Made by a program: the position numbers and the translations under genes. The notes beneath the pieces were generated by a model. The model had not been told where the DNA came from and searched no databases. It saw nothing but the letters and a program-made list of their open reading frames with translations. A DNA stretch of 64,000 nt from Myxococcota bacterium (GTDB lineage: Bacteria; Myxococcota_A; UBA9160; SMWR01). The stretch covers positions 124,001 to 188,000 of the forward strand of contig JBCCEW010000001.1 of NCBI GenBank assembly GCA_039030075.1. The letters run 5' to 3'. Positions 1,204-19,460 of this stretch are shown piece after piece (position 1 is the stretch's first letter; the number at the start of each line of letters is the position of its first letter).

Positions 1204-1278
1204 ACGCGGAGGGATACCGAAGCGGCTCCCGCGGGGCGACCCGGGGAGGGCTTCAAATCGGGTACTCTGGGGCGGCTC

Positions 1279-2157
1279 ATGCGCGTCTGGCTGTCGTGGT
1301 TCTCGGTTCTCCTCTGGTTGGGAGCGAATGCGGTTTCGCCCGCGGGCGCGGTGATCATCGATTCCGGCGACGGCAGCGGAAACACCACCGCCCCCTCCCC
1401 GGATCCGGGCTGGGCCCATCTGGGGATTGGGCTGGGAAACGGGCTCACCATCGTGTACCTCGGCGACGGGGCCGTCCTCACGGCGAATCACGTCGGTCCC
1501 CAGAGCGTGCTGCTCGGAGGCGTGACCTACGCCAGCGTTCCTGGCAGTGACGTCCGGATTTCGAACGGAGACGGGAGCTTCGCGGACCTCTTGCTCTTTG
1601 AGATCTTCCCCCGCCCGTCCCTGCCGAGCCTGACCATCGCGTCGGCGACCCCGTCGATGGGAACCGCCATCATCGCCGGCGGCCGTGGTCGGAACCGGGG
1701 CCCTGCGACGTCCTGGAATCCGCCCGGTCCCGGAGGCTCGATCGACGGCTATCTCTGGGATCCGGGCAATACGTTGCGATGGGGCACCAATCACGTCGAG
1801 GTGTTCCCCGCCGAACGCGTGCTCGGTACCGAGTCCATTGGGAGCACTTTCGACGAGTTCGCGGCGAACTCGCCGCACGAGTGCCAGGCCGCGACCGGCG
1901 ACTCGGGCGGGGCCGCGTTCGTGGACAACGGCGGGAACTGGGAACTCGCCGGCCTGCTCTTCGCCATCGCCGAATTCGAGAACCAGCCCGCCGACACGTC
2001 GCTCTACGGCCAGCTCACCTACTTCGCCGATCTCGCCTTCTACAAGGCCGAGATCGAGAATCTGGTGATGATGCCCGAGCCCCGCGGCGCCCTCGGTTGG
2101 GGCGGTCTCGGGGTGTGTGCCTTGGCCGCCCTGCGGCGGCGTCGGGCGCGGGCCTAG
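1279..2157 (+). CDS. PEP-CTERM-anchored trypsin-like serine protease
   Basis: 292 residues. A signal peptide covers about residues 1-24 (LLWLGANAVSPAGA). The body is a chymotrypsin-fold protease: His71 in LTANHVG, Asp103 in FADLLLF and Ser209 in ATGDSGG form the triad. The C terminus has MPEP (265-268), a short hydrophobic stretch (270-285) and the basic tail RRRRARA, the three-part PEP-CTERM signal that exosortase/EpsH recognises in exopolysaccharide-producing Gram-negatives. So it is probably secreted, sorted and released or anchored at the surface. No exosortase gene is in the window. A weak -10-like TACTCT lies at 1263-1268. It ends convergently on the ExbB-like gene, the two stop codons sharing CTAG at 2154-2157. 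Confidence 0.85.
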   Translation: MRVWLSWFSVLLWLGANAVSPAGAVIIDSGDGSGNTTAPSPDPGWAHLGIGLGNGLTIVYLGDGAVLTANHVGPQSVLLGGVTYASVPGSDVRISNGDGSFADLLLFEIFPRPSLPSLTIASATPSMGTAIIAGGRGRNRGPATSWNPPGPGGSIDGYLWDPGNTLRWGTNHVEVFPAERVLGTESIGSTFDEFAANSPHECQAATGDSGGAAFVDNGGNWELAGLLFAIAEFENQPADTSLYGQLTYFADLAFYKAEIENLVMMPEPRGALGWGGLGVCALAALRRRRARA

Positions 2158-2160
2158 GCC
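2151..2160. repeat. Palindrome over convergent stop codons
   Basis: GGCCTAGGCC is a perfect 10-base palindrome containing the TAG stops of both convergent genes. It may work as a small bidirectional hairpin, but no T-run follows on either side. Confidence 0.35.
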
Positions 2161-2729
2161 GCCGCCCGCCGCTCCTCGGAGCGGCGCTGCATCGAGATTA
2201 CTTCGTCGACGCACGCCAGCAGGCGCGTGTAGAGCCGCAGCTTCATGCCTTCGAGCATGGAGAAGCCCACCAGCGCGAAGATGCTCGAGGTGAGCGCGAT
2301 TGCGAGTGCGCCGAGCTCCAGGCTCGAGTCCGCCATGTGCATCGACACGAAGAGGATCAGCAGGCCGCCCGTCGTGCCAATGAACCCGATCGGAGGCAGC
2401 AGGTTCGCGTACATCGAGATGCGCTGTGCGTAGTGGGTGTCGTACTCGTTCACCACGTACTGGCGCGTCGCGTCGACGATGAAGTCGCGCGGGTGACCCG
2501 CCTGGTTCTCCTGCAGGCTCTTCATCAGCGTCCGCACCATCACGACCGCGAGCGGCTCGTTGGCGGCCGCATTCGGGCTCTTCGCCACGTGCTGCTTCAG
2601 CTCACCGGCACCCAGATGGCGTGTGGCGGCGCGGGCCTCGTAGCAGAGGCGCATGCCGCGATAGAGCGGAAACCACACCGCGGCCAGGGCAGCGCCACTC
2701 ACCACGCACGTCAACAGCCAATCGGACAT
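2154..2729 (-). CDS. MotA/TolQ/ExbB-family proton-channel protein
   Basis: 191 residues. Likely inner-membrane stator or proton-channel subunit that energises a TonB-like transducer. Predicted membrane segments are at about 4-22, 108-131 and 138-160, with a cytoplasmic loop of about 80 residues between the first two, the ExbB/TolQ topology. The segment LPPIGFIGTTGGLLILF in the second helix matches the conserved family helix (LGLLGTVxGM type). It is the last gene of the operon 7992-2154, 37 bases after the lipoprotein gene. The ExbD-like partner is five genes away at the other end of the operon, which is unusual because ExbB and ExbD genes are normally adjacent. Confidence 0.8.
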   Translation of the reverse strand: MSDWLLTCVVSGAALAAVWFPLYRGMRLCYEARAATRHLGAGELKQHVAKSPNAAANEPLAVVMVRTLMKSLQENQAGHPRDFIVDATRQYVVNEYDTHYAQRISMYANLLPPIGFIGTTGGLLILFVSMHMADSSLELGALAIALTSSIFALVGFSMLEGMKLRLYTRLLACVDEVISMQRRSEERRAAA

Positions 2730-2766
2730 CCGTCGTTCTCCTGCCAGTCGCGTCCGTCGGGACGCT

Positions 2767-3312
2767 TCAGCCGTTCCACCAATCGCGGTTGCGGAGGCGC
2801 TCGATGCCCTCGCGCAGCGTTCCCTGGCTGCCGAGCGGGTACGAGACGACCATCTCTCCGCGGCCTGGATAGCGCCGCTCGATCTCCTCGAGCATGCGAT
2901 CGGTGCTCGAGGGCGATCCCATCTGGAGCCAGAGCTCGGCTACCGCAAAGCGCACGTTCACGTCGAGCACGGCCACTTCCGGGTGACGACTCTGCCACTC
3001 GCCTTCGAGTAGGGGCAGCACGTGCTTCACGAGGTACATGTCCACGAACTCGCGGAACATCACCGAAGCGCCGCGGTCGCCGCGGCGGTTCAGGCTCTCG
3101 AGGGTCGCGTGAAAGTGCGAGAGGTCCCGGTAGCTCCGGTCGAGGTCGAGCTTGCGCTGCACGAGGGCCTCGCCACCGAGCGGCGCGTTCGCCTCGCTCC
3201 TGGCGGTCTGCTCGAGCAGGTCGTCGGCGATCGTCTCGTCGGTCACGCAGCCCGCGCCTACGACGAGCACGAAGGACAAGAGGGCCAGGGGAATCCAGCG
3301 ATGGGTGTTCAT
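2767..3312 (-). CDS. Predicted lipoprotein of the TonB/secretin locus
   Basis: 181 residues, function not recognised. The N terminus is a lipoprotein signal (MNTHRWIPLALLSFVLVVGAGC) with lipidation at Cys22. The mature part is helical and charged, without a family I can name; it ends RNRDWWNG. ATG at 3312 gives a standard signal. It lies between the 675-residue exported protein (17 bases upstream) and the ExbB-like gene (37 bases downstream), so it is probably a periplasmic or outer-membrane component of the same machine. The absence of an Asp right after the Cys argues for outer-membrane sorting by the usual Lol rule. Confidence 0.75.
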   Translation of the reverse strand: MNTHRWIPLALLSFVLVVGAGCVTDETIADDLLEQTARSEANAPLGGEALVQRKLDLDRSYRDLSHFHATLESLNRRGDRGASVMFREFVDMYLVKHVLPLLEGEWQSRHPEVAVLDVNVRFAVAELWLQMGSPSSTDRMLEEIERRYPGRGEMVVSYPLGSQGTLREGIERLRNRDWWNG

Positions 3313-3329
3313 CTTCGTGTCTCCCGCGC

Positions 3330-5357
3330 CTAGGGGCGATTCTCGTGGTACATGCGGCGCAGGAGGGTGTGCACCGGGTGATCGCGGCGCGCGCGCAGCT
3401 CTTCGACCATGGCCTCGGTGCCGAGGGTGGCCTTGAAGAGCGGCAGTGCGCTGGTGCGCGCCTCGATCTGCTTCTCCATGCGCAGCAGGCTGCGCTTGGT
3501 CTGTTCGATCTTGCGGTCGAGGTTCTCGACCTGCAGGGCGTCGACCGGGTCGCCGCTCACCTGGAACTCGGCGTCCGGGTCGGGCGCGGCGGGTCCGACG
3601 TCGCGGCCGAGGCGGTCGCGGCGCGCAGCCAGTTCGATCAGGTCGTTCTCGGCCCGCTCGTGCTGGGTGCGCAGGCTGGTCAGGCTGTCCTCGAGCTCGG
3701 CCACCGTCGACTCCTCGGCGAAGCCGAGGTAGACGAGCACCTGGCTGTCGGCGAGGGCGCGTCGCAGGACGGCGATCTGGGCCGCGCTGGCTTCGCCCTT
3801 CTGGATCCAGCTGTCGACATGGCGCGAGCTGGTGACGCCCTCGGCGACGGGGCGTGCGAGGTCGAGGTAGCTGTTCTCCTGCCCCTGACGCTCGAGCGAC
3901 GAAGCGAGGCTGGGCCAGAGCTGGCGGTCGAAGGGGAACAGACGGAGCGCCGCGACATAGCGACGCGTCGCCTGGCGCATCTCGGCGCGGGACAGGCGAC
4001 CGCGCGCGTAGGTGAGGAGCGAATCGCCGTAGCCCCGTGCAGCCTCGTAGGCCGCGAAGTAGGCCGAGTCCGGCAGCGTCTCGCGCTCGGAAGGAACGGC
4101 GTAGCGCTGGAAGAGCGAGAGGTAGCGGGCGTAGATGCGCGCCGCGCTGCGCGCGTAGTCGTCGGCCAGGTGCGGCTTCTCGACGGCGCGGGTCAGGTAG
4201 TAGTCGGCCGCGTTGAGGCTGGTCTCCTGGATCTCTTCCCACAGGCCGTGCATCGACGCCAGGTAGTCTTCCTTGCCGTCGTAGCCCATCTCGCGAAGGT
4301 CATCGCCTTCCTTCAGCTCACCGTAGACGTCGATCGCGCCCTCGATGCTGAAGGGGGTGTCGATCTCCGGGTCGACACCGAGGCGCTGCTTCGCGGCGTA
4401 CACCTCGCCGAGCTGGCGCAGCACGCGGGTGTAGACCGCGGCCTGGCCCTGCAGGGTCACCGCGCGGTCGAGGGCGGCCTCGTAGGCGCCGCTCGCGACG
4501 CGCATCGCCTTGATCGTCTCGGCTTCGAGCCCGCGCTCGGCGAGCATCGAGCGCGCTTCGTCGTGGTACTTGCTGGCCTCGAACAGGGCCAGCGTAAAGG
4601 TCAGGCTGCCCGCGTCGGATTCGGTGCCGTCCAGCCGCGACACGATGCGATCGAGATAGGCCCTCGAGGACAGCTCGACGGGGATCACGTCGGGGTGCGC
4701 GCCGACACGACCGTCGTGGAGCAGGCGCACGATGGCGGCCAGCGGGTCGAGGTCGCGGTCGACACCCATCTGCTGGCTTCGGATCAGGACCAGCCGCGAC
4801 AGGTTCTCGTAGAGATAGGGCAGCGCGGCCACGAAGCCCGAGTTCGGCGAGTCCGAGAGGGACAGGGTGCGCAGCGTGTCGTAGGGAGTCTCGAGCGGCA
4901 CGATCACGTGCAGCCACAGATCGAGCATCTCACCGACGAAGTCGAAGCGCTGGTCTCGTTCGAGCGCGCGGTGCGCGAGGATGTAGTGGTACCAGTAGCG
5001 GTTCTCGTGCCGTTCGAGACGGTCCGAGAGCTGCACGATGGTGTCGACGCTGTCGTCGAGGTGATCGGGTTCGCCCGTCGCGAGATAGAGCAGGAGCTGG
5101 GCGATCGCCGCGCGCCGCATCGACGTCTCGGGGTCCGGCGCGGCTTCGATCGCGCCCGGGCCGAAGGCCACCGGAATGTAGTCCTCGAGCCGAATCCCGG
5201 CCTCGTTCCCGTACTGGGAGAGGCGCGAGCGCAGCGCGTCCGCATCCGCCGACGAGTACACGTAGGCGTAGTCGAGATAGCCGGCCCAGGGCGAATCGGC
5301 GGCGGCCGCGGGGACGGCCAGGGTCAGCATCAGGGAGAGGGCGGCGAGCGCCTTCAT
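3330..5357 (-). CDS. Exported 675-residue helical repeat protein of unknown function
   Basis: A signal peptide covers residues 1-20 (MKALAALSLMLTLAVPAAAA). The mature protein is rich in Ala, Leu, Arg and paired helices typical of TPR-like scaffolds (for example YLTRAVEKPHLADDYARSAA). Around residues 560-645 there is a heptad-like coiled coil (LEDSLTSLRTQHERAENDL and VENLDRKIEQTKRSLLRME). No catalytic motif is seen. It sits between the TonB-like gene (9 bases) and the lipoprotein gene (17 bases). By context it may be a periplasmic scaffold linking the TonB-like transducer to the outer membrane. I do not recognise a named family. Confidence 0.78.
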   Translation of the reverse strand: MKALAALSLMLTLAVPAAAADSPWAGYLDYAYVYSSADADALRSRLSQYGNEAGIRLEDYIPVAFGPGAIEAAPDPETSMRRAAIAQLLLYLATGEPDHLDDSVDTIVQLSDRLERHENRYWYHYILAHRALERDQRFDFVGEMLDLWLHVIVPLETPYDTLRTLSLSDSPNSGFVAALPYLYENLSRLVLIRSQQMGVDRDLDPLAAIVRLLHDGRVGAHPDVIPVELSSRAYLDRIVSRLDGTESDAGSLTFTLALFEASKYHDEARSMLAERGLEAETIKAMRVASGAYEAALDRAVTLQGQAAVYTRVLRQLGEVYAAKQRLGVDPEIDTPFSIEGAIDVYGELKEGDDLREMGYDGKEDYLASMHGLWEEIQETSLNAADYYLTRAVEKPHLADDYARSAARIYARYLSLFQRYAVPSERETLPDSAYFAAYEAARGYGDSLLTYARGRLSRAEMRQATRRYVAALRLFPFDRQLWPSLASSLERQGQENSYLDLARPVAEGVTSSRHVDSWIQKGEASAAQIAVLRRALADSQVLVYLGFAEESTVAELEDSLTSLRTQHERAENDLIELAARRDRLGRDVGPAAPDPDAEFQVSGDPVDALQVENLDRKIEQTKRSLLRMEKQIEARTSALPLFKATLGTEAMVEELRARRDHPVHTLLRRMYHENRP

Positions 5358-5366
5358 CGTCGGCTC

Positions 5367-6671
5367 CTAACGGGGGGATTTCGCGAGGCAGGAGAGCGCG
5401 TGCGCGAGCTCTTCACAGCGGTCACCCGACCGGCGCCGCGGCGCCGGTTCGATGCCCATCAGGAAGGCGTTCACGTTCTTCGTCTCCACCAGGTGGAATC
5501 GGCCAGCCGGGCTCTCACACGAAGCTCGTTTTCCGGCTTCGGCCACGACCTTTTGTTTCAGGGCGAGTTCCCGGGCGTCGGACACGCAGGGGGCCAGGGA
5601 TCCGAGGGAGATCCCCGGAATCCGTGCCTGCGGGTCGGCGGTCCGGGCGCGGGCTGCCGGCTGGACCGGGGTGGCCGCGCGACGGGGCCGCGGGGCCGGC
5701 TCCGGGCGTCGCCGTGCCTTCTCCGGCACGGCGCCGACCGAGGCCACCTCGACGCGCTCACGCGAACGGCGCCCGGGAGGCGGCGTGGCGGCTCGACGTG
5801 TGCGCGCCGGAGCGCGCTCGGGCCGGTTCGGGCTCGTGGGGGGCGGCGCCACCGCGCTCGGGACAGGAAGCGGGGCACTCTTGCGCGGCGCATCGCGCCG
5901 CGGCCGGGCACTGCGGCTCGGCGTCTCGGGCGCGGGAGCGGCGGGTGCCGCCAACGCGGGCGCAGGAGCGAGACTGGGCGCGGGGCGCGACGCGCGCGCG
6001 ACGGCGAAGGCCGGCGCCGAGCGGCTCGGCCGATCGTTGGGCGCGGGCTCGTCCGGGGCCAGTTCGTCGATGGCAAGAGCGGGGGCCGGAGCCACCTTCG
6101 GAAGCGTCGGCGCCGGCCGGCGTCGCTGCACCGGTGCGGGCTCGGGCGGCGGCGCGGCCTGGGCGATCATGCGATCGATCTGGGGCGGCGGGCGACTCGG
6201 CTGCTTCGGAGGAGGCGGCGGCTTCGGCCGTTCCACCCGCGGCTTCGGCGGCGGCGGAGCTTGCGCGACCACCACCGGCGGCGGCGCCGGTTCGGGCACG
6301 ACGACGGGCTCGGGTTCCGGAATCACAGGTTCGGGCTCGGGCACCGGTTCCGGTTCGGGGACCACGGGCGGCGGAGGCTCGACCTCTGCCACGACCACGG
6401 GCTCGTCCTCGAAGGCGACGATGCGCACGCCGGCGTCGTCGTCCTGATCGACCTGGAGCAGCAGCATCCACATGGCGAGCGCGGCCACGAGCGGCGGGGC
6501 GAGGCCGCGGGCGAAGTCGCGGGCGGTGCGCGCGGGTGCACCTTCGCGCTGCCAGTCGCGGATTCCCTCGAGCAGCGGTCGCGGCTCGACACGACGCGTC
6601 GACGGCGCCACCGGCAGCGGTACGCGACCGGCGCCGTAGCCGTAGCGGCCTTCGAGTCGGGCGCGGCTCAT
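5367..6671 (-). CDS. TonB-like proline-rich energy transducer with atypical Cys-containing C terminus
   Basis: 434 residues. Order: basic cytoplasmic N terminus (1-55), one membrane anchor at about 58-73 (LVAALAMWMLLLQV), an acidic then Pro-rich periplasmic arm (about 85-365) with PEPEPV repeats followed by PPPPK and RPAP runs, and a C-terminal domain of about 65 residues with four Cys (CVSD, RASCES, DRCEE, ALSCLA). The architecture is TonB/TolA-like, but I do not find a canonical TonB C-terminal domain; the Cys could form disulfides in the periplasm. ATG at 6671 is chosen because it gives an N-in single-anchor protein and lies 13 bases after the ExbD-like gene. Its likely partners are the ExbB- and ExbD-like proteins of this operon. 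Confidence 0.75.
   Translation of the reverse strand: MSRARLEGRYGYGAGRVPLPVAPSTRRVEPRPLLEGIRDWQREGAPARTARDFARGLAPPLVAALAMWMLLLQVDQDDDAGVRIVAFEDEPVVVAEVEPPPPVVPEPEPVPEPEPVIPEPEPVVVPEPAPPPVVVAQAPPPPKPRVERPKPPPPPKQPSRPPPQIDRMIAQAAPPPEPAPVQRRRPAPTLPKVAPAPALAIDELAPDEPAPNDRPSRSAPAFAVARASRPAPSLAPAPALAAPAAPAPETPSRSARPRRDAPRKSAPLPVPSAVAPPPTSPNRPERAPARTRRAATPPPGRRSRERVEVASVGAVPEKARRRPEPAPRPRRAATPVQPAARARTADPQARIPGISLGSLAPCVSDARELALKQKVVAEAGKRASCESPAGRFHLVETKNVNAFLMGIEPAPRRRSGDRCEELAHALSCLAKSPR
6160..6390 (-). repeat. Proline-rich coding repeats in the TonB-like gene
   Basis: This stretch encodes consecutive PEPEPV-type and PPPP-type units of the periplasmic arm. The DNA is correspondingly repetitive and GC-rich, so length variation by slippage is possible. 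Confidence 0.6.
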
Positions 6672-6684
6672 GGGAGGCCTCGGT

Positions 6685-7149
6685 TCATCGCTGGGCCATG
6701 CGGGGCGACACCGTCGCGCGCCGCGTGCCTGGCCACAGCTCTTCGAGCAGGGCCACCGCGTCGAGTAGATCCTGACTCCGCGAATCTTCGTGGGGAGCCA
6801 GCAAGGGCTTCTTGCCGACGTCGCCCTGCAGCGCACTGAGGCGGTCGCGGAGCGCTTCGAGCTCGGCGCGTTCGGTCTCGGCCGGTTCCCCGTCGATGAC
6901 ACGCACGAGTTCGAAGGGCGCCTCCTCACTCGGAGGATGGATGCGCAGCTGCCAGCGTTCGTGGGCCTGGCTCGGGAGACTCGCCGTCGCGTCCTGCTCG
7001 ATGCGGGGCACGACCAGCTCGCCGAGCACGGGCGCCTCGACCGGTGCGTCCTCTGCGAGCTGTGTCATCGCGATCAGCAGCAGGAACGCCAGATCGACGA
7101 AGGAAAAGAGCCACGAGGGCGCATTCCCGCCCTGGTTCGGTGCGTTCAT
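6685..7149 (-). CDS. ExbD/TolR-like protein
   Basis: 154 residues with one N-terminal membrane segment (about 14-30). The motif FVDLAFLLLI puts an Asp at residue 19, the position of the proton-conducting Asp in ExbD/TolR. The periplasmic part has a pairing-prone helix (ETERAELEALRDRLSALQ) and ends SPRMAQR. With the ExbB-like protein it should form the proton-driven motor for the TonB-like protein. It is second in the operon, 12 bases after the barrel gene and 13 before the TonB-like gene. The periplasmic domain diverges from classical ExbD, so substrate cannot be inferred. Confidence 0.78.
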   Translation of the reverse strand: MNAPNQGGNAPSWLFSFVDLAFLLLIAMTQLAEDAPVEAPVLGELVVPRIEQDATASLPSQAHERWQLRIHPPSEEAPFELVRVIDGEPAETERAELEALRDRLSALQGDVGKKPLLAPHEDSRSQDLLDAVALLEELWPGTRRATVSPRMAQR

Positions 7150-7161
7150 CGGGGGGGATGC

Positions 7162-7992
7162 CTAGTCTTCGCCGAGCAGGCTGAACCGCCAGAAGGCGAA
7201 GTGGAGGGAGGTCGTGAACTCCTGCGCGGTGAGGTCCACGGAGTAGCTGCCGCGCGGGGTGAAGGTCGTGTCCGTCAGGGCCGTGTCGACCTTGCCGAGG
7301 TTGTAGAAGCGCCAACCGACGCTCCAGCTGACGCGCTCGTTCAGCTGGTATCCAACGCCGGCGCCCGCCTGCCAGGCGAACTCCTGGGCGTCGTCGTCGC
7401 CGAGCAGAAGCGAGGTGCTGACGGCGAGATCGGTGAAGGCGAGCCCCGCACCGCCGCTGCCGTAGATCGTGAGCGGATCGAGCCACGGGACGCGACCGAA
7501 GATCGCGTTGATCGGCGCGCGCACGGGCAGGTCCATCCGGAACTTCCCCATCACGGACCACGAATCGATGTCGGCCCGGTACGGCTCGAGCGCATTGAAG
7601 CTGTCCGTATCGAGATCGAAGTTGCGTCCGCGCAGGTGTTCGATCTCGACGCGCATCGGCCAATCGGGGAAACGCCAGTCTTCTTCGCCGAAGAACCGCA
7701 GCTGGCGGCCGGGCCAGTAGGGCACCGCGAAGCCGGGCAGGTTCATACGCCAGGGCAGGGCTTCGTTGAGCGGAAAGGCCATGCCGAGCGAACCGCCGTA
7801 GATCGGCGAGGAGTCGTTGCTCGAGCCCGAATTCGTCAGACTGACGAAGTTGTTCGTGCCGGTCCCCTCGCCTGTGAGCGAGGAGATGCCGATGTTTCCC
7901 GCGAGGTAGAGTTCCGCGGCCGGGCTGGCCGCGGGCAGCAGCAGGGCAAGGCCCAGGAGCCACCCGAATGTTCGAGATCTCTGGCTGCGCAT
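7162..7992 (-). CDS. Outer-membrane beta-barrel protein
   Basis: 276 residues from ATG at 7992. The signal peptide is about 1-25 (WLLGLALLLPAASPAA). The rest shows alternating strands rich in Gly and aromatics (ELYLAGNIGISSL, WQAGAGVGYQLNERVSWSVGW) and the C-terminal strand ends in FAFWRFSLLGED, as in OmpA/OmpW-like barrels. Its strands and length suit an 8-stranded barrel. A GAGGG Shine-Dalgarno sits about 5 bases before the ATG; an in-frame TTG at 8004 is less likely. It is the first gene of the operon with ExbD, TonB-like and ExbB-like genes, and its start lies close to that of the divergent secretin. Confidence 0.78.
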   Translation of the reverse strand: MRSQRSRTFGWLLGLALLLPAASPAAELYLAGNIGISSLTGEGTGTNNFVSLTNSGSSNDSSPIYGGSLGMAFPLNEALPWRMNLPGFAVPYWPGRQLRFFGEEDWRFPDWPMRVEIEHLRGRNFDLDTDSFNALEPYRADIDSWSVMGKFRMDLPVRAPINAIFGRVPWLDPLTIYGSGGAGLAFTDLAVSTSLLLGDDDAQEFAWQAGAGVGYQLNERVSWSVGWRFYNLGKVDTALTDTTFTPRGSYSVDLTAQEFTTSLHFAFWRFSLLGED

Positions 7993-8116
7993 GAATTCCC
8001 TCAACAGTTCCGGGGGGTTGCCGGCAGGTTTCCACGCTTCTTCGAGCGGGCGGGCGCGTGGCTATGTGTCCCCCGTCACGTTTCTCATCGGCAGAACGGC
8101 CCCAGGATCGAAGCCC

Positions 8117-10399
8117 TTGACGCTTTTTCGCCCCGTTTTTGGAACTCTCGTTGCGCTCGCCTTGCTGGGCGTGGCGGGGGCGACCCACGCCCAGGAACCG
8201 GTGGCCGTGTACGGCCTGGAACTCGAAGTCGACGAGGACCGCGAGCGCCTGCTGATCTTCTCGGGGGCGCCGGTCACTCCCCGTCTCGTTCCGGTGGACG
8301 ACCGCACGCTGATGCTCGCTCTGCCGGGCACCTTCCTGGACCCGTCCGCTCCCACGCGAATCGTGCCCGGGCGGCAGGGGACCGTTCGTCGCATCACCAG
8401 CTTCGACCGCGCCGAGGCCGGGGGAGCGCCCGAGGTCCGGATCGTCGTCCAGCGGCGTCCCGGGGCCCCACCCAGCATCGAGCGACGGGCGTCGATCATC
8501 GCCGTCGACTTTCCCGCGATGCCGCGTTTGCCCGCGGCCCGCCAACCGGGCGATCGCGTCTCGGTCGCTTTCAAGCGGGCGCCGTTGCGTCAGGTCGTCA
8601 CCCAGTTGGCGGAGGCCACCGGCGAGACGCTCATCTTCGACGAGACGCTCTCGGGCGTCCTCACCGTCGAAGGTCCCAGCACGGTCAGCCGCGACGAAGC
8701 CCTCGCGATGCTCGACAGCGCACTCTTGATCCGCGGTTTCGCGGCGGTGCCGGCCCCCGGTGGCGGCCGCAAGATCGTGTCGATCCAGGGAGCGCCCGGA
8801 CCCTGGGTGACCGACGACGCGCTCCCGGACTCGGACACGGTCGCCACCACCCTCGTGCGACTCGAGACCATGCGCGTCGAACACGTCGCGCCGGTGATTC
8901 AGCCGCTCGTGGGAGCCCAGGCGCGCGCGACGTCGTATCCGCCGACCAACAGCCTGATCCTCTCCGGGCCGGCGTCCCGGTTACGCCGGCTTCGCGAGGC
9001 GCTCCTGCTCTTCGATGACGTCGAGCTCGGTCAATGGGTGATCTGGCGCGCCCAGTTCTCCAACGCCGAGAACCTCGCCTCTCAGGTGCAGGAAGTGGTG
9101 GGCGAGAAAGGCATCCTCGAGTCGGGTTTCGACGCCCGCACCAACCGGGTCCTGCTTCGGGTGCGACCAGATGCGGTGGAGCGTGCGCGTTCGATCGTGC
9201 GTCGTCTCGATCGCCCGGCGGCGGGATCCGGCAAGTTCCACGTCGTGCGCGTCGAGCACGCGGACCTCGATCGCCTGGTCGAGATCCTGGAGTCGCTGCG
9301 CGATACGCCGAGAGCGAACACGAACGTGGCCTTCGCGCGGTCGCTGGGGATCGAGCGCGCGATCGGTCTGCAGAGCCGCGATTTCGCGGTGAGCGCGGAT
9401 CCCGCCACCCACAGCCTGCTGGTGCGCGCGGCCCCCGACGACCTCGCTGCCGTTCTCGACGTGGTGCGCGCGATCGATCGAGAGCCGACGCTCGTGAAGG
9501 TGTCCCTCGACATCCTGCGGCTCGATCTCGACGACTCCCTCGACCTGGGCAGCGAGTACATCATTCCGTCGGTCATCGAGCCGGACTCGGCGCGCGACCT
9601 GATCGCACAGGTGTCGCGGGTCGACGCCGGCGGCGTGCTGGACCCGGCGGCGGGCGGGAACCTCCCCCCGTTGGTCGCCAACTACACCCGCGCGCCGCTG
9701 ATCGTGCCGATCGTCGACCCGATCACGGGAGCCGTCTTCCCCTTCATGATCAATCGGGAGACGGTCTCCTTCACCGCGAGCGGGCGGACCGTCGAGACCG
9801 ATTCGATCGTACGTCCGCGGCTGCTGGTCACGAGCGGCGAGGAGCACGAGATCTTCGCCGGTGACAACATCCCGGTCCCCGTGTCGTCGACCACCGACAC
9901 GACGATCGCCACCCAGGTGCGCCAGGACATCGAGCGCTACGACGTCGGCACGAGCGTGCGCATCACGCCGACGGTCGGCGCTCAGGGCACGATCGAGCTG
10001 GACCTCGCCGTGGAGGTCACCTCGCTCAGCGCATCGCTGGCGGGCCCGATCGAGGACGTCGGTCCGACCATCGAGGAGCTGAGCGTCGAGTCGACGATCC
10101 TGCTGCAGAGCGGCGACGTGGCGATCCTGGCCACCCAGGCCGATTCGGTCGAAGCCGATGCTGAGGCCGGCGTGCCCTGGCTCTCCCAGGTCCCCTTCTT
10201 GAAGTGGGCCTTCACGAACACCGCCGAGAGCCTGCGCAAGCGACACATCCTGATCGCCGTGGAGGCCGAGGTGGTGACGCCCGAGGCGCTCGCACTCGCG
10301 GAGCAGATCACCGCGCTGGTGCGCGACCGTGAAGCGCGCGCTCAGGCCCTCGCGGACGAGTCGGGTTCGCCGGAGCCGGCCAGCTCGCAAGACGAGTAG
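8117..10399 (+). CDS. Secretin (GspD/PilQ-type outer-membrane channel)
   Basis: About 760 residues. Order: signal peptide (LFRPVFGTLVALALLGVAG, cleaved after ATHAQ), an AMIN-like beta domain (GLELEVDEDRERLLIFSG), an STN/N0-like domain (VSVAFKRAPLRQVVTQLAE), two or three N1-like repeats (ending YPPTNSLILSGPASRL and SADPATHSLLVRAAP), and the secretin core (RPRLLVTSGEEHEIFAGDN, VPWLSQVPFLKWAF). It would form a multimeric outer-membrane pore. TTG at 8117 is preferred: it gives a 26-residue signal peptide and leaves room for divergent promoters. ATG at 7991 overlaps the divergent start and would add 42 residues; GTG at 8066 is a third option. No type II or IV pilus genes are nearby; the neighbours are TonB-motor genes. 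Confidence 0.85.
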   Translation: MTLFRPVFGTLVALALLGVAGATHAQEPVAVYGLELEVDEDRERLLIFSGAPVTPRLVPVDDRTLMLALPGTFLDPSAPTRIVPGRQGTVRRITSFDRAEAGGAPEVRIVVQRRPGAPPSIERRASIIAVDFPAMPRLPAARQPGDRVSVAFKRAPLRQVVTQLAEATGETLIFDETLSGVLTVEGPSTVSRDEALAMLDSALLIRGFAAVPAPGGGRKIVSIQGAPGPWVTDDALPDSDTVATTLVRLETMRVEHVAPVIQPLVGAQARATSYPPTNSLILSGPASRLRRLREALLLFDDVELGQWVIWRAQFSNAENLASQVQEVVGEKGILESGFDARTNRVLLRVRPDAVERARSIVRRLDRPAAGSGKFHVVRVEHADLDRLVEILESLRDTPRANTNVAFARSLGIERAIGLQSRDFAVSADPATHSLLVRAAPDDLAAVLDVVRAIDREPTLVKVSLDILRLDLDDSLDLGSEYIIPSVIEPDSARDLIAQVSRVDAGGVLDPAAGGNLPPLVANYTRAPLIVPIVDPITGAVFPFMINRETVSFTASGRTVETDSIVRPRLLVTSGEEHEIFAGDNIPVPVSSTTDTTIATQVRQDIERYDVGTSVRITPTVGAQGTIELDLAVEVTSLSASLAGPIEDVGPTIEELSVESTILLQSGDVAILATQADSVEADAEAGVPWLSQVPFLKWAFTNTAESLRKRHILIAVEAEVVTPEALALAEQITALVRDREARAQALADESGSPEPASSQDE

Positions 10400-10421: not shown

Positions 10422-11339
10422 CTAGGCGGCGTCGGCGCTGGTGTCGCCGAGGTGCGCTTCCACCGGGCCGCCGTGGGCTTGGCGGGTGTGGGGCAGTCCG
10501 AGATCGTCGAGCCAGCGCGCGGCGCTCTCACCCTGGAGCAGGGCGATCGTCGAGGCCGTGCCCGCGATCAGGCAGCGCGACGCGAAGACCGTGACGCTCG
10601 CCAGGCTCTCGATGGGCCAGCCGGTGCGGGGGTCGAGCACGTGCCCGTAGCGAACACCGTCGACCACCATGCAGCGTTCGTAGTCGCCGCTCGTCGCGAC
10701 ACCGCCACTCGTCACGGGAACCAGCCCGGCCGGTCGATCGGGTGCGTTTGCGTCCCGCACCCCCACCCGCCAGGGGGCGCCACCGGGGTGGGGGCCGATC
10801 ACGGCGAGGTCGCCGCCGAGGTCGACGATGCCGCTCTGGCAGCCGGCTTCGCGCAGGAGCTGTGCCACCCGGTCGGCGGCGTATTCCTTCACGAAGCCAC
10901 CGAGGTCGATCTGCATCCCGGTGTCGGGCAGGCGAATCTCGGGCGCGCACCACTCCACCCGCTGCCAGCCGACATGGGGCAGTAGGGCGTCGATCGCGTC
11001 CTGGTGGGGAAGGCGCTCCGATCGGAAATCCCAGGCGCGCCGCAAGATGCCCGAGGTGATGTCGAAGCGTCCTTCGCTCTGTCGGAAGCAGGTCTCGGCG
11101 TAGTCGAGCAGCGAGGTCGTCTCGGGATCGACCCGAACCGGCGCGTCACCAGCGCCGGCGTTGATGCGCCCGACGATGCTGTCGCCACGGTAGCGGGAGT
11201 ACTTGCGCTCGAGTCGCGCAATCTCGCCCCGGGCGGCCGCGGCCCAGTGGCGCGCGCGGCGCGGAGACTCGGCGTAGAGCTGCAGGGCGCACGGGCAGCC
11301 CATCGCTTTGAAGCGAAAGGCCTGGAGTCGCGCCGACAC
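10422..11339 (-). CDS. apbE: FAD:protein FMN transferase
   Basis: 305 residues. ApbE covalently attaches FMN from FAD to a Thr or Ser of target proteins, usually on the periplasmic side. The family signatures are present: FRFKAMGC near the N terminus, DLGGFVKEYAADR, VDLGGDLAVIG, TSGDYER and GHVLDPRTGWP (metal and FAD site). GTG at 11339 is chosen because it keeps the conserved strand before AMGC; it lies 5 bases after the stop of the DUF3570 gene. No signal peptide is visible, so export is unclear. It is the last gene of the operon with DUF3570, DUF4266, TlpA-like and DsbD-like genes. Confidence 0.88.
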   Translation of the reverse strand: MSARLQAFRFKAMGCPCALQLYAESPRRARHWAAAARGEIARLERKYSRYRGDSIVGRINAGAGDAPVRVDPETTSLLDYAETCFRQSEGRFDITSGILRRAWDFRSERLPHQDAIDALLPHVGWQRVEWCAPEIRLPDTGMQIDLGGFVKEYAADRVAQLLREAGCQSGIVDLGGDLAVIGPHPGGAPWRVGVRDANAPDRPAGLVPVTSGGVATSGDYERCMVVDGVRYGHVLDPRTGWPIESLASVTVFASRCLIAGTASTIALLQGESAARWLDDLGLPHTRQAHGGPVEAHLGDTSADAA

Positions 11340-11344
11340 CCGCT

Positions 11345-12631
11345 CTAGAACCGTGCGGTCAGACCGACCGAGAACAGGTTGTAGGAGACGAGGCCCGGGT
11401 TCTCGACTTCCACGCTCTGGATCGCGAGATCCGAGGCGCTCTCGTAGCGCTCGAAGGACACGTTGGCGTCCCACAGGAGCTGCCAGGTCTGGAAGCGCGC
11501 CGCGGCCTTCAAGCGGTAGGCGAACGCGCCGTACGGCGAGAGGCGGTAGTCGCTCGAGCGATAGCCGTCGCTGCGGGGACCGACGTAGAAGGGTGCGTAG
11601 AAGTCCGCCTGGCTCTGGGAGTAGTAGCGGAGCGAGGGGATCAGTCGGATGCGCTCGAAGAGCGTCTGGTACCAGGCCAGCTCGAACTCGTGCGCGTTGA
11701 TGCCCCAGTCGTCGACGCCGAGCTTGTAGTCGAGGTGCAGCGTGCCGCCCATGCGCGTGAAGTGGTGGCGGAAACGCGTGAGCCACGAGAACTGGTGCCG
11801 CTGATCGGGTCGCTCGTCGGTCTCGGGAATGTTCGCCACGAACGCGAGCTTGTACGGGTCCGAGAGGAAGCCGTCGGAGAGCTGGTATTTCAGTGAAGAC
11901 TGGATCGTGGTGGCGCGCCCGAGCACCTGGGAGGCGCCGAGGGAGAGGTTGTAGGTCTGCTTGTTCTCTTTGTCCGGGCGTGTCGGGAAGAGATCCGTAT
12001 CGACGGGTTCGATCTGGTCGAAGGAGCCGCCAATGCCCGCCGAGACCGTGGTGTTCTTCTCGTTGAACTGGCGCTCGCCGTTCACGCCGAGATTGACAGC
12101 GAGGTAGTCGTTCTCGATCGAGACACCGGTCGAGCCCGAGAGCGTCCCGCGGTCGAGGTAGCGGGTGCCCGTGAGCATGGCGTCGGTGCGCGCTTCGTCG
12201 ATGGTGGCGCCGGTCATCACCTGGACCGGATCGTCCGCGGGGGTCGCACCCGGGGTGACGTACCACGGCGTGGCGCCCGTCATCGTCTCGTGGGCGAGTT
12301 CGAGTCCGACTCCCCAGCGGTCGCCGACGGGCGCCTCGAAGCGGAACTGGTGGATGTCGATCTCGTAGCGGTCGCGCTCGCTGCCCGGTGCGGCCTTGCC
12401 ACTGTCGAGGCTGTCTTCGCTGTACTGCGAGTACTTGTAGTCGGCGCGCATCTCGAGGGGAGCCGACTCGGCCGACGCGCGATCGGCGAGCCCGGGCAGC
12501 GCGAGGGCGCCCGAGGTGATCGCGTGCAGGAAGGTCCGCGGTTGGGTCTGGCGCTCGAGGCGCTTCGCCTGTCGGCGGCGCTGTCGCGCCCGCCGTGCGG
12601 CGGCCTTGTTCTGCGCTCTGCGTCGGCTCAT
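11345..12631 (-). CDS. DUF3570-family outer-membrane-like protein, possible ApbE target
   Basis: 428 residues. A very basic N terminus (MSRRRAQNKAAARRARQ) precedes a hydrophobic export segment (about 31-54, ending DRASA). The remainder is beta-rich with alternating aromatic strands and ends YNLFSVGLTARF, the terminal Phe typical of outer-membrane barrels. I assign DUF3570 from the order of motifs and from the DUF4266 and ApbE neighbours. Two TGAT tetrads occur at residues 118-121 (ETMTGAT) and 140-143 (QVMTGAT), like the (S/T)GAT sequence to which ApbE attaches FMN. Function is unknown. Start at ATG 12631 has GAGGG five bases upstream. Confidence 0.82.
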   Translation of the reverse strand: MSRRRAQNKAAARRARQRRRQAKRLERQTQPRTFLHAITSGALALPGLADRASAESAPLEMRADYKYSQYSEDSLDSGKAAPGSERDRYEIDIHQFRFEAPVGDRWGVGLELAHETMTGATPWYVTPGATPADDPVQVMTGATIDEARTDAMLTGTRYLDRGTLSGSTGVSIENDYLAVNLGVNGERQFNEKNTTVSAGIGGSFDQIEPVDTDLFPTRPDKENKQTYNLSLGASQVLGRATTIQSSLKYQLSDGFLSDPYKLAFVANIPETDERPDQRHQFSWLTRFRHHFTRMGGTLHLDYKLGVDDWGINAHEFELAWYQTLFERIRLIPSLRYYSQSQADFYAPFYVGPRSDGYRSSDYRLSPYGAFAYRLKAAARFQTWQLLWDANVSFERYESASDLAIQSVEVENPGLVSYNLFSVGLTARF

Positions 12632-12655
12632 GGATCCCTCGCGTACGCTCGGCAG

Positions 12656-12874
12656 CTAGTTGCAGCCGCAGCCGCCGCCGCCGGCGGCGCCGCCGTCGAG
12701 CGAGCCTTCCTTGCTGAATTCGATGTGCTTCTCGAGTGCCGACTCGAGCGGGTCGGGATCCCATGCCATGTCGGTACGGGCCAGGACGTCCCGTTCCCAG
12801 GGACGCACGGACTCACAACCCACGGCACCCAGGAGCACCACAGCCAGCAGCAGGACGGACGCACGCATCGCCAT
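12656..12874 (-). CDS. DUF4266 small lipoprotein
   Basis: 72 residues. Lipoprotein signal MAMRASVLLLAVVLLGAVGC, then the core motif RPWERDVLARTDMAWDPDP and a helix ending KHIEFSKEG, and a Gly-rich tail GGAAGGGGCGCN with two Cys. This matches the short DUF4266 family that accompanies DUF3570 proteins. The Gly/Cys tail might bind metal or be modified, but that is inference. It starts two bases after the TlpA-like stop, so translation is probably coupled. A second ATG at 12868 would remove only two residues. Confidence 0.83.
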   Translation of the reverse strand: MAMRASVLLLAVVLLGAVGCESVRPWERDVLARTDMAWDPDPLESALEKHIEFSKEGSLDGGAAGGGGCGCN

Positions 12875-12876
12875 TC

Positions 12877-13428
12877 CTATCGTCCTGCCGCGACGAGGGC
12901 CTGAATGCGCTTGCGCAGGCTCTCGACGTCCTGCTTGCGGAAGCCCTTGTGGACGTGGTGGACGGTTCCGTTGCGATCGATCAAGAACGAGGTGGGCATG
13001 GTTTCCACCCCGAACTGGGCCGGGGTCTCCCCCTTGGGATCCAGGCCGCTCGGGTAGCCGACCGGTCGGCGCTTCAAGAACTTCTTCGCGGCCGCGCTCG
13101 TCCCATCCACGTTGATGGCGACGACCTGGAAGTCCTCTTCGGGGAACTCCTGGCGGAGCGCGTCGAGGGCCGGCAGCGCTTGGGCGCAGGGGCCGCACCA
13201 GGACGCCCAGAAATCGAGGTAGACGACCTTCCCGCGATGCTCCTCGAGCGACACGGTGCCGCCGGTGAGGCCGGGCAGCTGGAACGACGGGGCCGTCTCG
13301 CCGGCCTCGACGGCCTGAGTGGCGGAAGCGCTCAGGAGCACCGCGAGCGCGAGAGCGGCAAGGGCGGAACGAGACGTGCGGCGGGGGAGGTTCGACACGA
13401 TGAGGGTCCTCGTTGTTGTCCGGTGCAT
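12877..13428 (-). CDS. TlpA/ResA-like periplasmic thioredoxin
   Basis: 183 residues. N-terminal signal or anchor at about 20-40 (ALAALALAVLLSASATQA). Thioredoxin fold with active site FWASWCGPC at about 73-81 and the cis-Pro loop VETMPTSFLID. Likely a periplasmic thiol reductant or oxidoreductase supplied with electrons by the DsbD-like protein encoded upstream. The start may be ATG 13428 or a GTG 11 codons in (VSNLPRR), which gives a more ordinary signal peptide. A CRP/FNR-type palindrome ends 24 bases upstream. Confidence 0.88.
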   Translation of the reverse strand: MHRTTTRTLIVSNLPRRTSRSALAALALAVLLSASATQAVEAGETAPSFQLPGLTGGTVSLEEHRGKVVYLDFWASWCGPCAQALPALDALRQEFPEEDFQVVAINVDGTSAAAKKFLKRRPVGYPSGLDPKGETPAQFGVETMPTSFLIDRNGTVHHVHKGFRKQDVESLRKRIQALVAAGR

Positions 13429-13451
13429 CGATGCACCGGCAAGTTCACTCG

Positions 13452-13465
13452 GTGATGCAGATCAC
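13452..13465. promoter_or_regulatory. CRP/FNR-type palindrome (site 1)
   Basis: GTGATGCAGATCAC is a dyad with arms GTGAT and ATCAC, fitting the GTGA-N6-TCAC pattern of CRP/FNR-family regulators. It overlaps the end of the DsbD-like gene, 24 bases upstream of the TlpA-like start. A site with one base different lies at 15884-15897. Confidence 0.5.
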
Positions 13466-15660
13466 GACCGGGGCGCGGCGCCGGCGACTTCGCGAAGGGC
13501 CGTGCGCAGTCCGTCTCGGGTGAGCAGCTCGGGGAGCAAGCGCGGCGCTGCGGCCCCGGGGGCGTAGAGCGCGTAGACCGGAACGCCGGCCTTGCCCAAC
13601 GCGGCGAGTGCGCCGCGGATGCGGTCGTCACGGCGCGTCCAGTCCGCGCGGTAGACCACGTAGTCGAGCTGCGACAGGGTTTCGGCGAGCGACGGGTCCG
13701 CGAGCACGCCCTTCTCGTTCACTTTGCAGGTCACGCACCAGTCGGCGGTGAAGTAGACGAAGACCGGGCGACCCTCGGCGAGGCTCGCCGAGACGGCGTC
13801 TGCCGAATAGGGCAGGGCGCTCTCGATCGCTGGCGCTTCGGGCTCCGCGCGGCTCTGCGGGGTGAGATCGATGGCGCCGATCCCGGCCGTGGTCACCGCG
13901 ATCATCGCCACGGCGAAGACGGCGGCCGAGACCGACACGCCGCGTCGTTGCAGCAGGCCCAGCAGGAATCCGACGAAGGCCACGGCCACCAGCAACATCA
14001 GCGTGGCGATCACCGCCTCGGGTCCACTCGCCCGGCCCAGGATCCACAGGAGCCATACCACCGTGAGCAGCAGGGCGAAGGCGAGGAACCCGCGCAGGTC
14101 GCTCATCCACGGGCCCGAGCGCGGCATCCGCCGGGCCCAACCCGGGAAGGCGGCGGCCAACAAGAAGGGCGTCGCGAGCCCCAACCCGATGGAGAGGAAG
14201 ATCGTGATGATCACCGGCGCCGAGCTCGCGAAGGCGAACCCGACCGCCGTACCGAGGAAGGGGGCGGAGCAGGGTGTCGCGAGCGCCACGGCGAGCAGTC
14301 CGTCGAAGAAGCTCCGACCGGCGCCCGGGGCGTTGCTGCCGATGGCGCTGAGCCTCGACGTGTCGACGAGAATTTCGAAGCCACCGAACAGGTTCAGCGC
14401 AAAGGCGACCAGCAGGCACGAGACGGCGACCAGGAAGCCGGGCTCCTGGAGCTGGAAGCCCCAGCCGACCGCATGGCCGGCGGAGCGCAGCGCGAGCACC
14501 ACCAGGGCGAGCGCCAGCATCGAGAGGCCGATGCCCGCCATGTAGGCCGCGGCGTGGCGTCGATGCTCGTGGTGCGAGCCCTGGGCGAGCTGCGCCAGCC
14601 CGGCGAGCTTGATCGCGAGCACCGGCAACACGCAGGGCATGAGATTGAGGATCAGGCCTCCGACCCAGCCGAGCAGCAGCGCACGCAGCCACTCGCCGAG
14701 CCCTCCTGGGGTGGGATCACTCGCGGCCGGCAGTGCGGTGGCCGTCGCGACCGGCACTTCGCGCAGGTCGATCTCGACGCTGCGGGGGGTGCCGCTCGCA
14801 TCGACCAGGGACAGGACACCGGCCGGGTGGGGGGCGAGGGCGCTTTCGTCGAGCGGCTCCCCGACGAGTGCGATCTCGAACGCTCCGGCGCGGCCATCCG
14901 CGACCGGCGTGGCTGCGCTCGCGCGCCAATCGGCTGCCTCGCTGGCGTAGGGGAAGAACGGGAAGCTCCCATCGGCGGCGCGCCAATCGCAGTCCTCGGC
15001 GCTACCGCACGGTTCCACCCGCAAGCGCGCCCGCAGCTGGCCCTCGGCGTTCGTGGCCACGGGTTCGACGAGGCGCACCGAGACGCCGACCGCTTCGGAC
15101 GGAAGCGGCACACGCGCGGACTCGGCGTCGAAGCGCGCGACCACCTCGGCGGGCGCCGGCGACAGCGGTGCGCGCAACGCGAAACGGGCGGGGAGGCAGA
15201 CATGGGCACAGACCAGTGCTTCGACGTCGGCGACGACGGCCGTCGCGTCGTCGGGGAAGCGCGCTTCGCTCACCAACAAGACGGGGCGCGCGTACCCGTA
15301 GGAGAGCAGGTCGATCTCACGGTCATAGAAGGCTTCCGGGGCGGGCCACGCGAGCGGCCCCATTTCGGGCGCCGCGTCGCTTCCTTCCAGGCCCCACGCG
15401 ACCTTCGGCGGCAGACCGGTATCGCCGGCGTTGCGCCAATACACGTGCCAGCCGGGCGAGGGGACGAGTTCCAAGCCGATCCGCCAGGCGCCCTCGCTCG
15501 GGGTTGCCCAGAGGCGCGCGGTCAAGCGGTCTTCGCCTCCTTCGGGGGCTCCATGGGCCTCGGCGGTTCGATGCGTGTCCGCATGGGCCAGGCCGAACCA
15601 CAGACACAGGACGAGGCTCGAGAGCCAGGCGAAGAGAAGTCGGGGGGGAGTGCTTCGCAT
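13462..15660 (-). CDS. DsbD/ScsB-like thiol:disulfide interchange protein
   Basis: 732 residues. Signal peptide (LLFAWLSSLVLCLWFGLAHA), a periplasmic N-terminal domain with a Cys pair (ALVCAHVCLP), a central membrane domain of about eight helices with the paired Cys in LMPCVLPVLAIK and ATPCSAPFLG, and a C-terminal thioredoxin domain with TADWCVTCK. This three-domain chain carries electrons from cytoplasmic thioredoxin to periplasmic partners, here probably the TlpA-like protein. ATG 15660 is preferred over ATG 15681 because GGAG stands six bases before it. First gene of the operon, 33 bases before the TlpA-like gene. Confidence 0.9.
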   Translation of the reverse strand: MRSTPPRLLFAWLSSLVLCLWFGLAHADTHRTAEAHGAPEGGEDRLTARLWATPSEGAWRIGLELVPSPGWHVYWRNAGDTGLPPKVAWGLEGSDAAPEMGPLAWPAPEAFYDREIDLLSYGYARPVLLVSEARFPDDATAVVADVEALVCAHVCLPARFALRAPLSPAPAEVVARFDAESARVPLPSEAVGVSVRLVEPVATNAEGQLRARLRVEPCGSAEDCDWRAADGSFPFFPYASEAADWRASAATPVADGRAGAFEIALVGEPLDESALAPHPAGVLSLVDASGTPRSVEIDLREVPVATATALPAASDPTPGGLGEWLRALLLGWVGGLILNLMPCVLPVLAIKLAGLAQLAQGSHHEHRRHAAAYMAGIGLSMLALALVVLALRSAGHAVGWGFQLQEPGFLVAVSCLLVAFALNLFGGFEILVDTSRLSAIGSNAPGAGRSFFDGLLAVALATPCSAPFLGTAVGFAFASSAPVIITIFLSIGLGLATPFLLAAAFPGWARRMPRSGPWMSDLRGFLAFALLLTVVWLLWILGRASGPEAVIATLMLLVAVAFVGFLLGLLQRRGVSVSAAVFAVAMIAVTTAGIGAIDLTPQSRAEPEAPAIESALPYSADAVSASLAEGRPVFVYFTADWCVTCKVNEKGVLADPSLAETLSQLDYVVYRADWTRRDDRIRGALAALGKAGVPVYALYAPGAAAPRLLPELLTRDGLRTALREVAGAAPRS

Positions 15661-15713
15661 AGGTGTCTCCGGTCGCGTCATCGGTCCGTGTCGACGTCGG
15701 GTTGAATGCTTGT

Positions 15714-15897: not shown

Positions 15898-15974
15898 AAG
15901 GCTGCGAGGGGAATCCACCGTAACGAATCGACAACGGCCAAGGAGAGGGGCCGTTGGGTGATCAGAGGATTCCC

Positions 15975-17198: not shown

Positions 17199-17290
17199 CC
17201 ATGAACCGGCACATCCTCCGAACGAACTTTCTGGAACATCGTCACGGCGCTGGAGGCGGGCCGTCGTGCGAGAAGCGAGTGGAGCGTTCC

Positions 17291-19411: not shown

Positions 19412-19460
19412 GCCCGACCCGGAAACCCAACTCCGACACGATTCAAAGAGAGGACCTCCC

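Follow-up and report, generated by a model that had tools for sequence, protein, structure and literature searches.

A putative proton-motor gene module in a redox and surface island with an ATPase-orphan secretin in uncultured Myxococcota-like bacteria

Only a few kinds of transducer tip (TonB/TolA, vWA and Glt) are known from proton-driven envelope motors. The Tol-Pal system together with CpoB comprises a motor, a proline-rich transducer, an exported TPR/coiled-coil protein and a lipoprotein. Force transducers other than TonB also work with 5:2 motors and TPR genes, as the vWA transducers do beside tolQ/tolR-like genes, and the same study describes an SHLS-type transmembrane motif with a histidine as a feature of TonB and TolA (PMC12204202). 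The Myxococcus Agl-Glt gliding machinery combines a motor with an exported TPR protein of about 675 residues (GltC, 673 residues), small barrels and a TonB-like linker (PMC3169522). In type II secretion systems (T2SS), the membrane-anchored periplasmic protein GspB/OutB contacts the N0 domain of the GspD secretin (PMC9239104). Protein secretion dependent on Ton and the proton motive force is known from Myxococcus, where PopC leaves through Oar, a TonB-dependent transporter and not a secretin (PMC6434023). We describe here a locus that shares parts with several of these systems.

A five-gene motor-like module divergent from a secretin

In the window, the 64,000-nucleotide stretch of Myxococcota bacterium DNA analysed here, seven open reading frames were confirmed at positions 2154–10399. 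Six minus-strand genes (8004 down to 2154), packed with gaps of 9–37 nt, are divergent from a plus-strand secretin gene (about 8066–10399), just as a sequence-only reading had described. The five core genes (2154–7149) encode an ExbD-like protein, a proline-rich transducer, an exported protein termed D, a lipoprotein and an ExbB-like protein. This order is retained across complete loci, so that having ExbB at one end of the operon and ExbD at the other, remarked upon in the sequence-only reading, proves to be a conserved arrangement. The core proteins are 42–70% identical to orthologues from other genera and are therefore products of real genes; chance reading frames in GC-rich DNA were thereby ruled out.

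The ExbB/TolQ-like protein (2154–2729, minus strand, 191 residues) is divergent: its match to PF01618 (E 0.00099) scores 19.3 bits in the protein scan and 20.2 bits in the genome scan, short of the curated cut-off of 22.9. Its orthologues in 10 loci are 42–61% identical, with LPPIGFIGTT and LALxSSIFALIG as conserved stretches, and no phage homologues of it were found. The ExbD/TolR-like protein (6685–7149, minus strand, 154 residues) reaches 14.9 bits against PF02472, where the cut-off is 25.4. Family membership of both subunits is thus weakly suggested by Pfam. The transmembrane aspartate of the ExbD-like protein, within FSF[VL]DLAF, is invariant in 10/10 orthologues read and would be the residue that binds protons.

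The transducer (5367–6671, minus strand) has a cytoplasmic YGxGA motif, one transmembrane helix, a proline-rich stalk and a C-terminal domain of about 80 residues that carries four invariant cysteines in the alignments (FVETKNLNAFLM). The transmembrane anchor and the proline-rich periplasmic stalk, seen in the alignment and the N termini, are as in TonB and TolA, and to this extent the name "TonB-like" given to it earlier is apt; the tip is another matter. Pfam and NCBIfam scans of the transducer gave no match, including to the TonB/TolA C-terminal family. The AlphaFold2 model (pLDDT 83.5) gave no match for the tip in the PDB at E ≤ 0.001 (best E 0.055, TM 0.24), and neither TonB/TolA nor GspB/GspC HR structures were among the 50 fold matches listed; no known secretin-contacting domain was thus found in it. 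Histidine is absent from the transmembrane segment in 10/10 N termini read by eye, and the SHLS-type motif with it. Tip and transmembrane motif together rule out a canonical TonB system.

Protein D (3330–5357, minus strand, 675 residues) is the hallmark of the module. Its profile matches TPR structures at positions 455–508, and its AlphaFold2 model (pLDDT 88.6) is all helical with a C-terminal coiled-coil (long helices 549–585 and 607–647), the fold matches being generic TPR or helical-repeat proteins only. The lipoprotein (2767–3312, minus strand, 181 residues, N terminus ...LVVGAGC) had no Pfam or NCBIfam match; a cysteine follows its signal-like hydrophobic N terminus in 11/11 orthologues inspected by eye, 6 of which match the strict lipobox pattern.

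The module therefore resembles the ExbBD-TonB and TolQRA 5:2 motors in its ExbB-like subunit, its ExbD-like subunit with a membrane aspartate and its membrane-anchored, proline-rich periplasmic transducer. It differs from them in motor subunits below the Pfam cut-offs, in the positions of ExbB and ExbD at either end of the operon with D between, and in a transducer that lacks both the TonB/TolA C-terminal family and the transmembrane histidine. Like the vWA systems, it pairs a non-TonB transducer with a TPR gene, but in place of vWA its tip has a small alpha/beta domain with four cysteines, it lacks the SHLS-type histidine and it has one ExbD instead of two (PMC12204202). Compared by parts list, it also recalls Agl-Glt, from which it departs in having a single ExbD per operon, a transducer in which the Pfam scan found no FHA, and a linked secretin with flavin and haem genes (PMC3169522). 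Membership of Agl-Glt was excluded by the missing second ExbD-type subunit and FHA-bearing GltG, and membership of Tol-Pal by the lack of TolB or an OmpA-domain Pal among the operon proteins.

An orphan secretin with a small barrel

Pfam strongly suggests that the plus-strand gene encodes a secretin (PF00263, 96.6 bits). An N-terminal extension, a GspD N0 domain and three Secretin_N domains precede the secretin domain, which is the GspD-type architecture. The protein scores 237 bits against the NCBIfam GspD equivalog (cut-off 351) and 99.5 bits against the PilQ family (threshold 284). In the tree, its clade lies next to, but apart from, T2SS GspD (support 100/98), and some members carry AMIN/SPOR-like extra ends; AMIN and a SPOR match below threshold are seen in a relative at locus L029.

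The small outer-membrane beta-barrel (7162–7992/8004, minus strand; PF13505, E 5.9e-11) is the secretin's usual operon partner, standing immediately upstream of it on the same strand in ten loci. The sequence-only reading had counted it with the motor genes; its usual place is the secretin's operon, and its position in the window is derived.

No GspE/PilB-type ATPase lies within 30 kb of any of the 16 members of the orphan clade, whereas 37/45 other secretins have one at that distance (Fisher p 3.6e-9). That the locus lacks type II secretion and pilus genes holds in that no T2SSE-family ATPase was found on the 416-kb contig carrying it, but the same genome has T2SS/T4P/Tad-type ATPases and six further secretins elsewhere. 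T2SS-type ATPases occur elsewhere in 16/16 genomes tested, and in 16/16 a T2SSE-family ATPase lies about 1.5–2.3 kb from a different secretin. A T2SS or type IV pilus (T4P) locus was ruled out here, no ATPase being near the secretin. The locus shares with the T2SS a GspD-like secretin and a membrane-anchored periplasmic protein nearby, and differs from it in having no GspE, a tip not recognisable as an HR domain, and AMIN/SPOR-like extras on some secretins of the clade (PMC9239104).

A flavinylation module and three exported proteins

The locus extends beyond the 2154–10399 genes of the sequence-only reading, which missed a flavinylation module (10422–15681) and three genes for exported haem/LamG/Tat proteins, F12–F14 (15954–20966). 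The former, all on the minus strand, encodes an ApbE flavin transferase (10422–11330; PF02424, E 8.9e-75), its predicted substrate, a DUF3570 protein with two TGAT motifs at residues 118 and 140 (11345–12631; PF12094, E 4.2e-65), a small secreted DUF4266 protein ending in CGCN (12656–12868; PF14086, E 1e-20), with CxC in 6/6 proteins read, a TlpA-like thioredoxin (12877–13428; PF08534/PF00578) and a DsbD-type transmembrane electron carrier (13462–15681; PF02683, PF11412, PF13899). This is the already known DsbD-TlpA-DUF4266-DUF3570-ApbE module: the five clustered genes, the [S/T]GA[S/T] pair and the terminal CxC of DUF4266 agree with the consulted sections of its description (eLife 2021, PMC8238504), which report flavinylation of the DUF3570 family in Chlorobium luteolum. 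In those sections the module is widespread in other bacteria, and no secretin, ExbBD motor or F12–F14 is mentioned.

F12 (15954–17198, plus strand) contains one CxxCH, kept in 7/7 orthologues, and resembles DUF1549 weakly (PF07583, 14.6 bits, below cut-off), one relative being weakly DUF1585-like. F13 (17201–19411, plus strand) is lipoprotein-like, with a LamG domain (PF13385, E 3.5e-18) and one CxxCH kept in 5/6 orthologues. F14 (19461–20966, plus strand) has a twin-arginine-type signal (RREFLA; RRxFL in 9/11 orthologues) and, although suspected by eye to be DUF1501, remained without a Pfam match when the threshold was relaxed to E 5. In five loci from several genera F14 is the gene next upstream of ExbD, in the same orientation; F12-F13-F14 precede ExbD on its strand in these and a sixth, and in all six the DsbD/ApbE module is divergent from it.

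Distribution and possible role of the motor

Among 91 genomes of the class, in which presence calls carry contig-break uncertainty, 22 carry D, and the transducer tip is found in precisely these; a 379-genome sample of the phylum gave no clear D profile match outside the class. The gene set is real and recurs in many genera, and by these profiles its motor genes appear to be a strictly co-inherited unit, known to date from a single class of uncultured Myxococcota-like bacteria. Linkage of secretin and motor was seen in at least 10 genomes; these come from four families and show three layouts. In one further genome (G090) lipoprotein-ExbB adjoins the secretin. It is commoner with the motor (18/22 motor genomes against 25/69 D-less ones; p 2e-4, uncorrected for phylogeny).

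The sequence-only reading had proposed that all seven genes form a secretin machine powered by the proton motor. The gene unit, the orphan secretin and their linkage agree with it; the separability of the genes and the lack of a known secretin-contacting domain do not. What it had named as telling against itself was observed in part: the secretin occurs without a detected motor, and some motors without a linked secretin. T2SS/T4P-type ATPases are also present in every tested genome, although the GspE-type ones stand next to a secretin of their own. Tight co-divergence of motor and secretin was looked for and not found (D against secretin pairwise identities, rho 0.13, p 0.44), and, mapped on the secretin tree, the motor-linked label needs about 9 changes, which is not below the number for shuffled labels.

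We favour, at a probability of roughly 0.42, the tentative reading that the five genes form a proton-motor module of a new kind, which would serve an envelope redox and surface island. The ExbB-like and ExbD-like subunits would form an inner-membrane motor, the transducer with its novel four-cysteine tip would convey its work across the periplasm, and D and the lipoprotein would be periplasmic and probably outer-membrane partners. Where the module most often occurs, the island that it serves would make F12–F14, a flavinylated redox system and a secretin without ATPase, accompanied by a small barrel; the motor would most likely power an outer-membrane step of this island, such as placing or exporting F12–F14, with the secretin as candidate port. 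F12–F14 ahead of the motor genes, the co-occurrence and the secretin linkage count in favour, as do the retained gene order, the invariant ExbD aspartate, the orphan status of the secretin and its higher frequency in motor genomes, and the conserved CxxCH and Tat-type signals of F12–F14.

A stronger version, in which the motor acts through the transducer to open or work the secretin and exports folded F12–F14 without ATPase or pseudopilus, we consider rather unlikely. The absence of nearby ATPases throughout the clade and a linkage that persists through three arrangements speak for it, and Tat-type and haem proteins, being folded on the periplasmic side, would require a wide port. GspB/OutB offers a precedent for contact with N0 (PMC9239104). 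Set against this are the 25/69 D-less genomes that keep the secretin, motors that lack it, a tip matching neither HR-like nor TonB-like folds, and uncorrelated D and secretin distances. Less likely still, the five genes could act on their own like Tol-Pal or Agl-Glt (PMC3169522), pulling on peptidoglycan or outer-membrane partners and sharing no more than an inherited neighbourhood with the secretin and redox genes. Type-2 motor copies stand without F12–F14, flavin module or linked secretin, so that the motor's own task may differ, and the parts list resembles both systems; but the operon lacks TolB, Pal/OmpA, FHA and a second ExbD, F12–F14 directly precede the motor genes in several genera, and linkage kept despite repeated rearrangement argues for shared function. 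Least probable is that the secretin serves the ordinary type II machinery in trans, the motor being unrelated. Its GspD-type N0-N1 architecture and branching beside T2SS GspD, the T2SS-type ATPases in all genomes tested and its persistence without the motor fit this reading, whereas the T2SSE-family ATPase beside a different secretin means that a pore is already at hand for the ordinary system, and the extra AMIN/SPOR-like ends of some clade members also speak against it.

What is new is a separate, co-inherited module whose transducer tip and large periplasmic partner, D, are both new, and the island gives genetic context to ATPase-orphan secretins and to the flavinylated DUF3570 system. Should the motor drive the secretin, this would be an exception to the general dependence of secretins on cytoplasmic ATPases, and folded haem and Tat-exported proteins would reach the cell surface by an export free of ATPase and pseudopilus.

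As to what was weighed for the motor-island reading, Oar, which shares the idea of Ton-driven export (PMC6434023), and the non-TonB transducers (PMC12204202) were counted as precedents. Lone type-2 motors, the secretin in D-less genomes, the label changes, the missing D-secretin correlation and secretin-binding domain, and a flavinylation module widespread without mention of a motor in the sections consulted (PMC8238504) were counted against it. Plasmid homologues of D were not found, and its close relatives in named genomes are 5 MAG contigs only. Secretin and ApbE pairwise identities do correlate (0.65).

The motor module and its distribution

The window derives from a 5.76-Mb draft genome (contig 1, positions 124001-188000) and contains all seven genes of the sequence-only reading, six on the minus strand plus a secretin gene. 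The minus-strand operon is ordered barrel, ExbD-like, transducer, D, lipoprotein and ExbB-like, with intergenic gaps of 9-37 nt; the five genes from ExbD-like to ExbB-like (2154-7149) constitute the motor module. Pfam support was strong for the secretin, good for the barrel and below the family cut-offs for the ExbB-like and ExbD-like proteins; the lipoprotein and transducer had no Pfam match, and D, a 675-residue TPR/coiled-coil protein, had no credible one. Beside the operon, a predicted secreted protein (1210-2157, plus strand; no Pfam match) shows by eye a GDSGG stretch of the trypsin type and, at its C terminus, a PEP-CTERM-like tail of hydrophobic residues and arginine.

Searching with D retrieved relatives of 44-70% identity in other genera, with neighbours identical in kind; named relatives come from metagenome assemblies, under the labels Myxococcota, Deltaproteobacteria or Proteobacteria. 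Profile searches placed D in 22 of the 91 genomes of the class, a count omitting three chance-level matches (G047, G054 and G080; E above 1e-4), and gave no clear match outside the class in a 379-genome phylum sample, where other matches all had E above 1e-4. A profile of the transducer tip, the C-terminal domain of about 80 residues, recovered exactly the same 22 genomes, bearing out the proposal that the motor genes form a unit. The unusual order with ExbB and ExbD at opposite ends also held, ExbD-transducer-D-lipoprotein-ExbB being kept in complete loci.

The ExbD membrane aspartate was found in every copy read, and the hydrophobic N terminus of the lipoprotein ends in cysteine in 11/11 copies read. 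The predicted structure of D (pLDDT 88.6) is helical throughout and includes a TPR-like segment and, towards the C terminus, two long helices. The transducer tip, predicted as helix, three strands, helix (pLDDT 83.5), carries four invariant cysteines; a fold search gave no match among solved structures at E<=0.001. The transducer also has no transmembrane histidine of the TonB/TolA kind, and its likeness to TonB is confined to its layout. Judged against open-licence literature and general knowledge, the module most plausibly represents a novel type of proton-driven motor of the envelope. Its nearest conceptual relatives are the PMF-dependent secretion of PopC through Oar (PMC6434023), non-TonB force transducers (PMC12204202), Agl-Glt (PMC3169522) and GspB-GspD anchoring (PMC9239104).

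Second motor copies (type-2; L035, L090, L091, L093 and L104) stand apart from any secretin, flavin-system or F12-F14 gene; in the first four loci a gene of 105-139 aa precedes ExbD.

The redox/surface island

The usual client of the motor is best seen as a redox/surface island. Its complete DsbD-TlpA-DUF4266-DUF3570-ApbE set (10422-15681), described as a flavinylation system (PMC8238504), has both expected motifs (two TGAT) in the window DUF3570 and the terminal CxC in DUF4266. Adjoining it are the exported-protein genes F12-F13-F14 (15954-20966), which precede ExbD on the same strand in six loci (L032, L034, L086, L088, L092 and L095) and which other genera carry immediately upstream of the motor. 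F12 is exported, with a single CxxCH in 7/7 copies, and is weakly similar to DUF1549 (one relative, weakly to DUF1585); F13 is lipoprotein-like, with a LamG domain and, in 5/6 copies, CxxCH; F14, of no Pfam family, has a twin-arginine-type (Tat) signal in 9/11 copies. PSCyt-type cytochromes with LamG-type domains have been described (PMC5615132). Most economically, the motor would export or place F12-F14, for which the secretin is a candidate port.

The orphan secretin and its linkage to the motor

The secretin (about 8066-10399, plus strand) resembles GspD and carries a long N-terminal extension; in a relative at locus L029, Pfam recognises an AMIN domain and, below threshold, an end similar to SPOR. 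In the tree, 34 secretins of this type separate from T2SS and other secretins (support 100/98). Across 16 genomes, no member of this orphan clade had a T2SSE-family ATPase within 30 kb, as against 37 of 45 other secretins, the remaining 8 having none on their contig. The suggestion of a secretin free of cytoplasmic ATPases stands for the neighbourhood but not for the genome: ordinary T2SS/T4P-type ATPases occur in every genome tested, so they may serve the orphan secretin in trans. Against such service, each of the 16 genomes has a T2SSE-family ATPase at a distance of 1.5-2.3 kb from another secretin.

The usual operon partner of the orphan secretin is the small barrel. In one genus (L117, L118, L119 and L171) an unrelated protein of 215-294 aa precedes the secretin instead; those of L117 and L118 were run against Pfam and gave no match. 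Clade secretins in L113, L158 and L159 (and L110) adjoin glycosyltransferase, methyltransferase and LPG-synthase-like genes; the motor was not found in the genomes of the first three.

Motor and secretin are linked in three layouts and four families. The secretin stands at the ExbD end in G000, G005, G033 and G045, at the ExbB end in G089 and G090 (where a contig break interrupts the motor), and beyond ApbE, with the motor in the same locus, in G039, G059, G063, G064 and G075. It is from this linkage that a possible contact between the two is inferred. Several observations speak against a dedicated motor-secretin machine. Among these draft genomes of many contigs, the secretin is present in 18/22 with D (G001 and G059 counted from fragments) and kept in 25/69 without it (among them G090, which counts as motor-less solely owing to its contig break). 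On the secretin tree the label for motor linkage shows no clustering: it needs 9 changes, no better than shuffled labels. Pairwise identities, from pairs that are not independent, showed no correlation between D and secretin; those of secretin and ApbE were correlated. Type-2 motor loci have no conserved substrate genes. The check proposed in the sequence-only reading, whether the seven genes stay together across lineages, goes partly against a single machine: motor and secretin are recurrently linked but also occur apart. Glycosyltransferase-type genes on the secretin's other side are common to G063, which has the island, and to G051, G034 and G055, which do not; in these genomes the secretin seems to have stayed put while the island next to it was either lost or gained.
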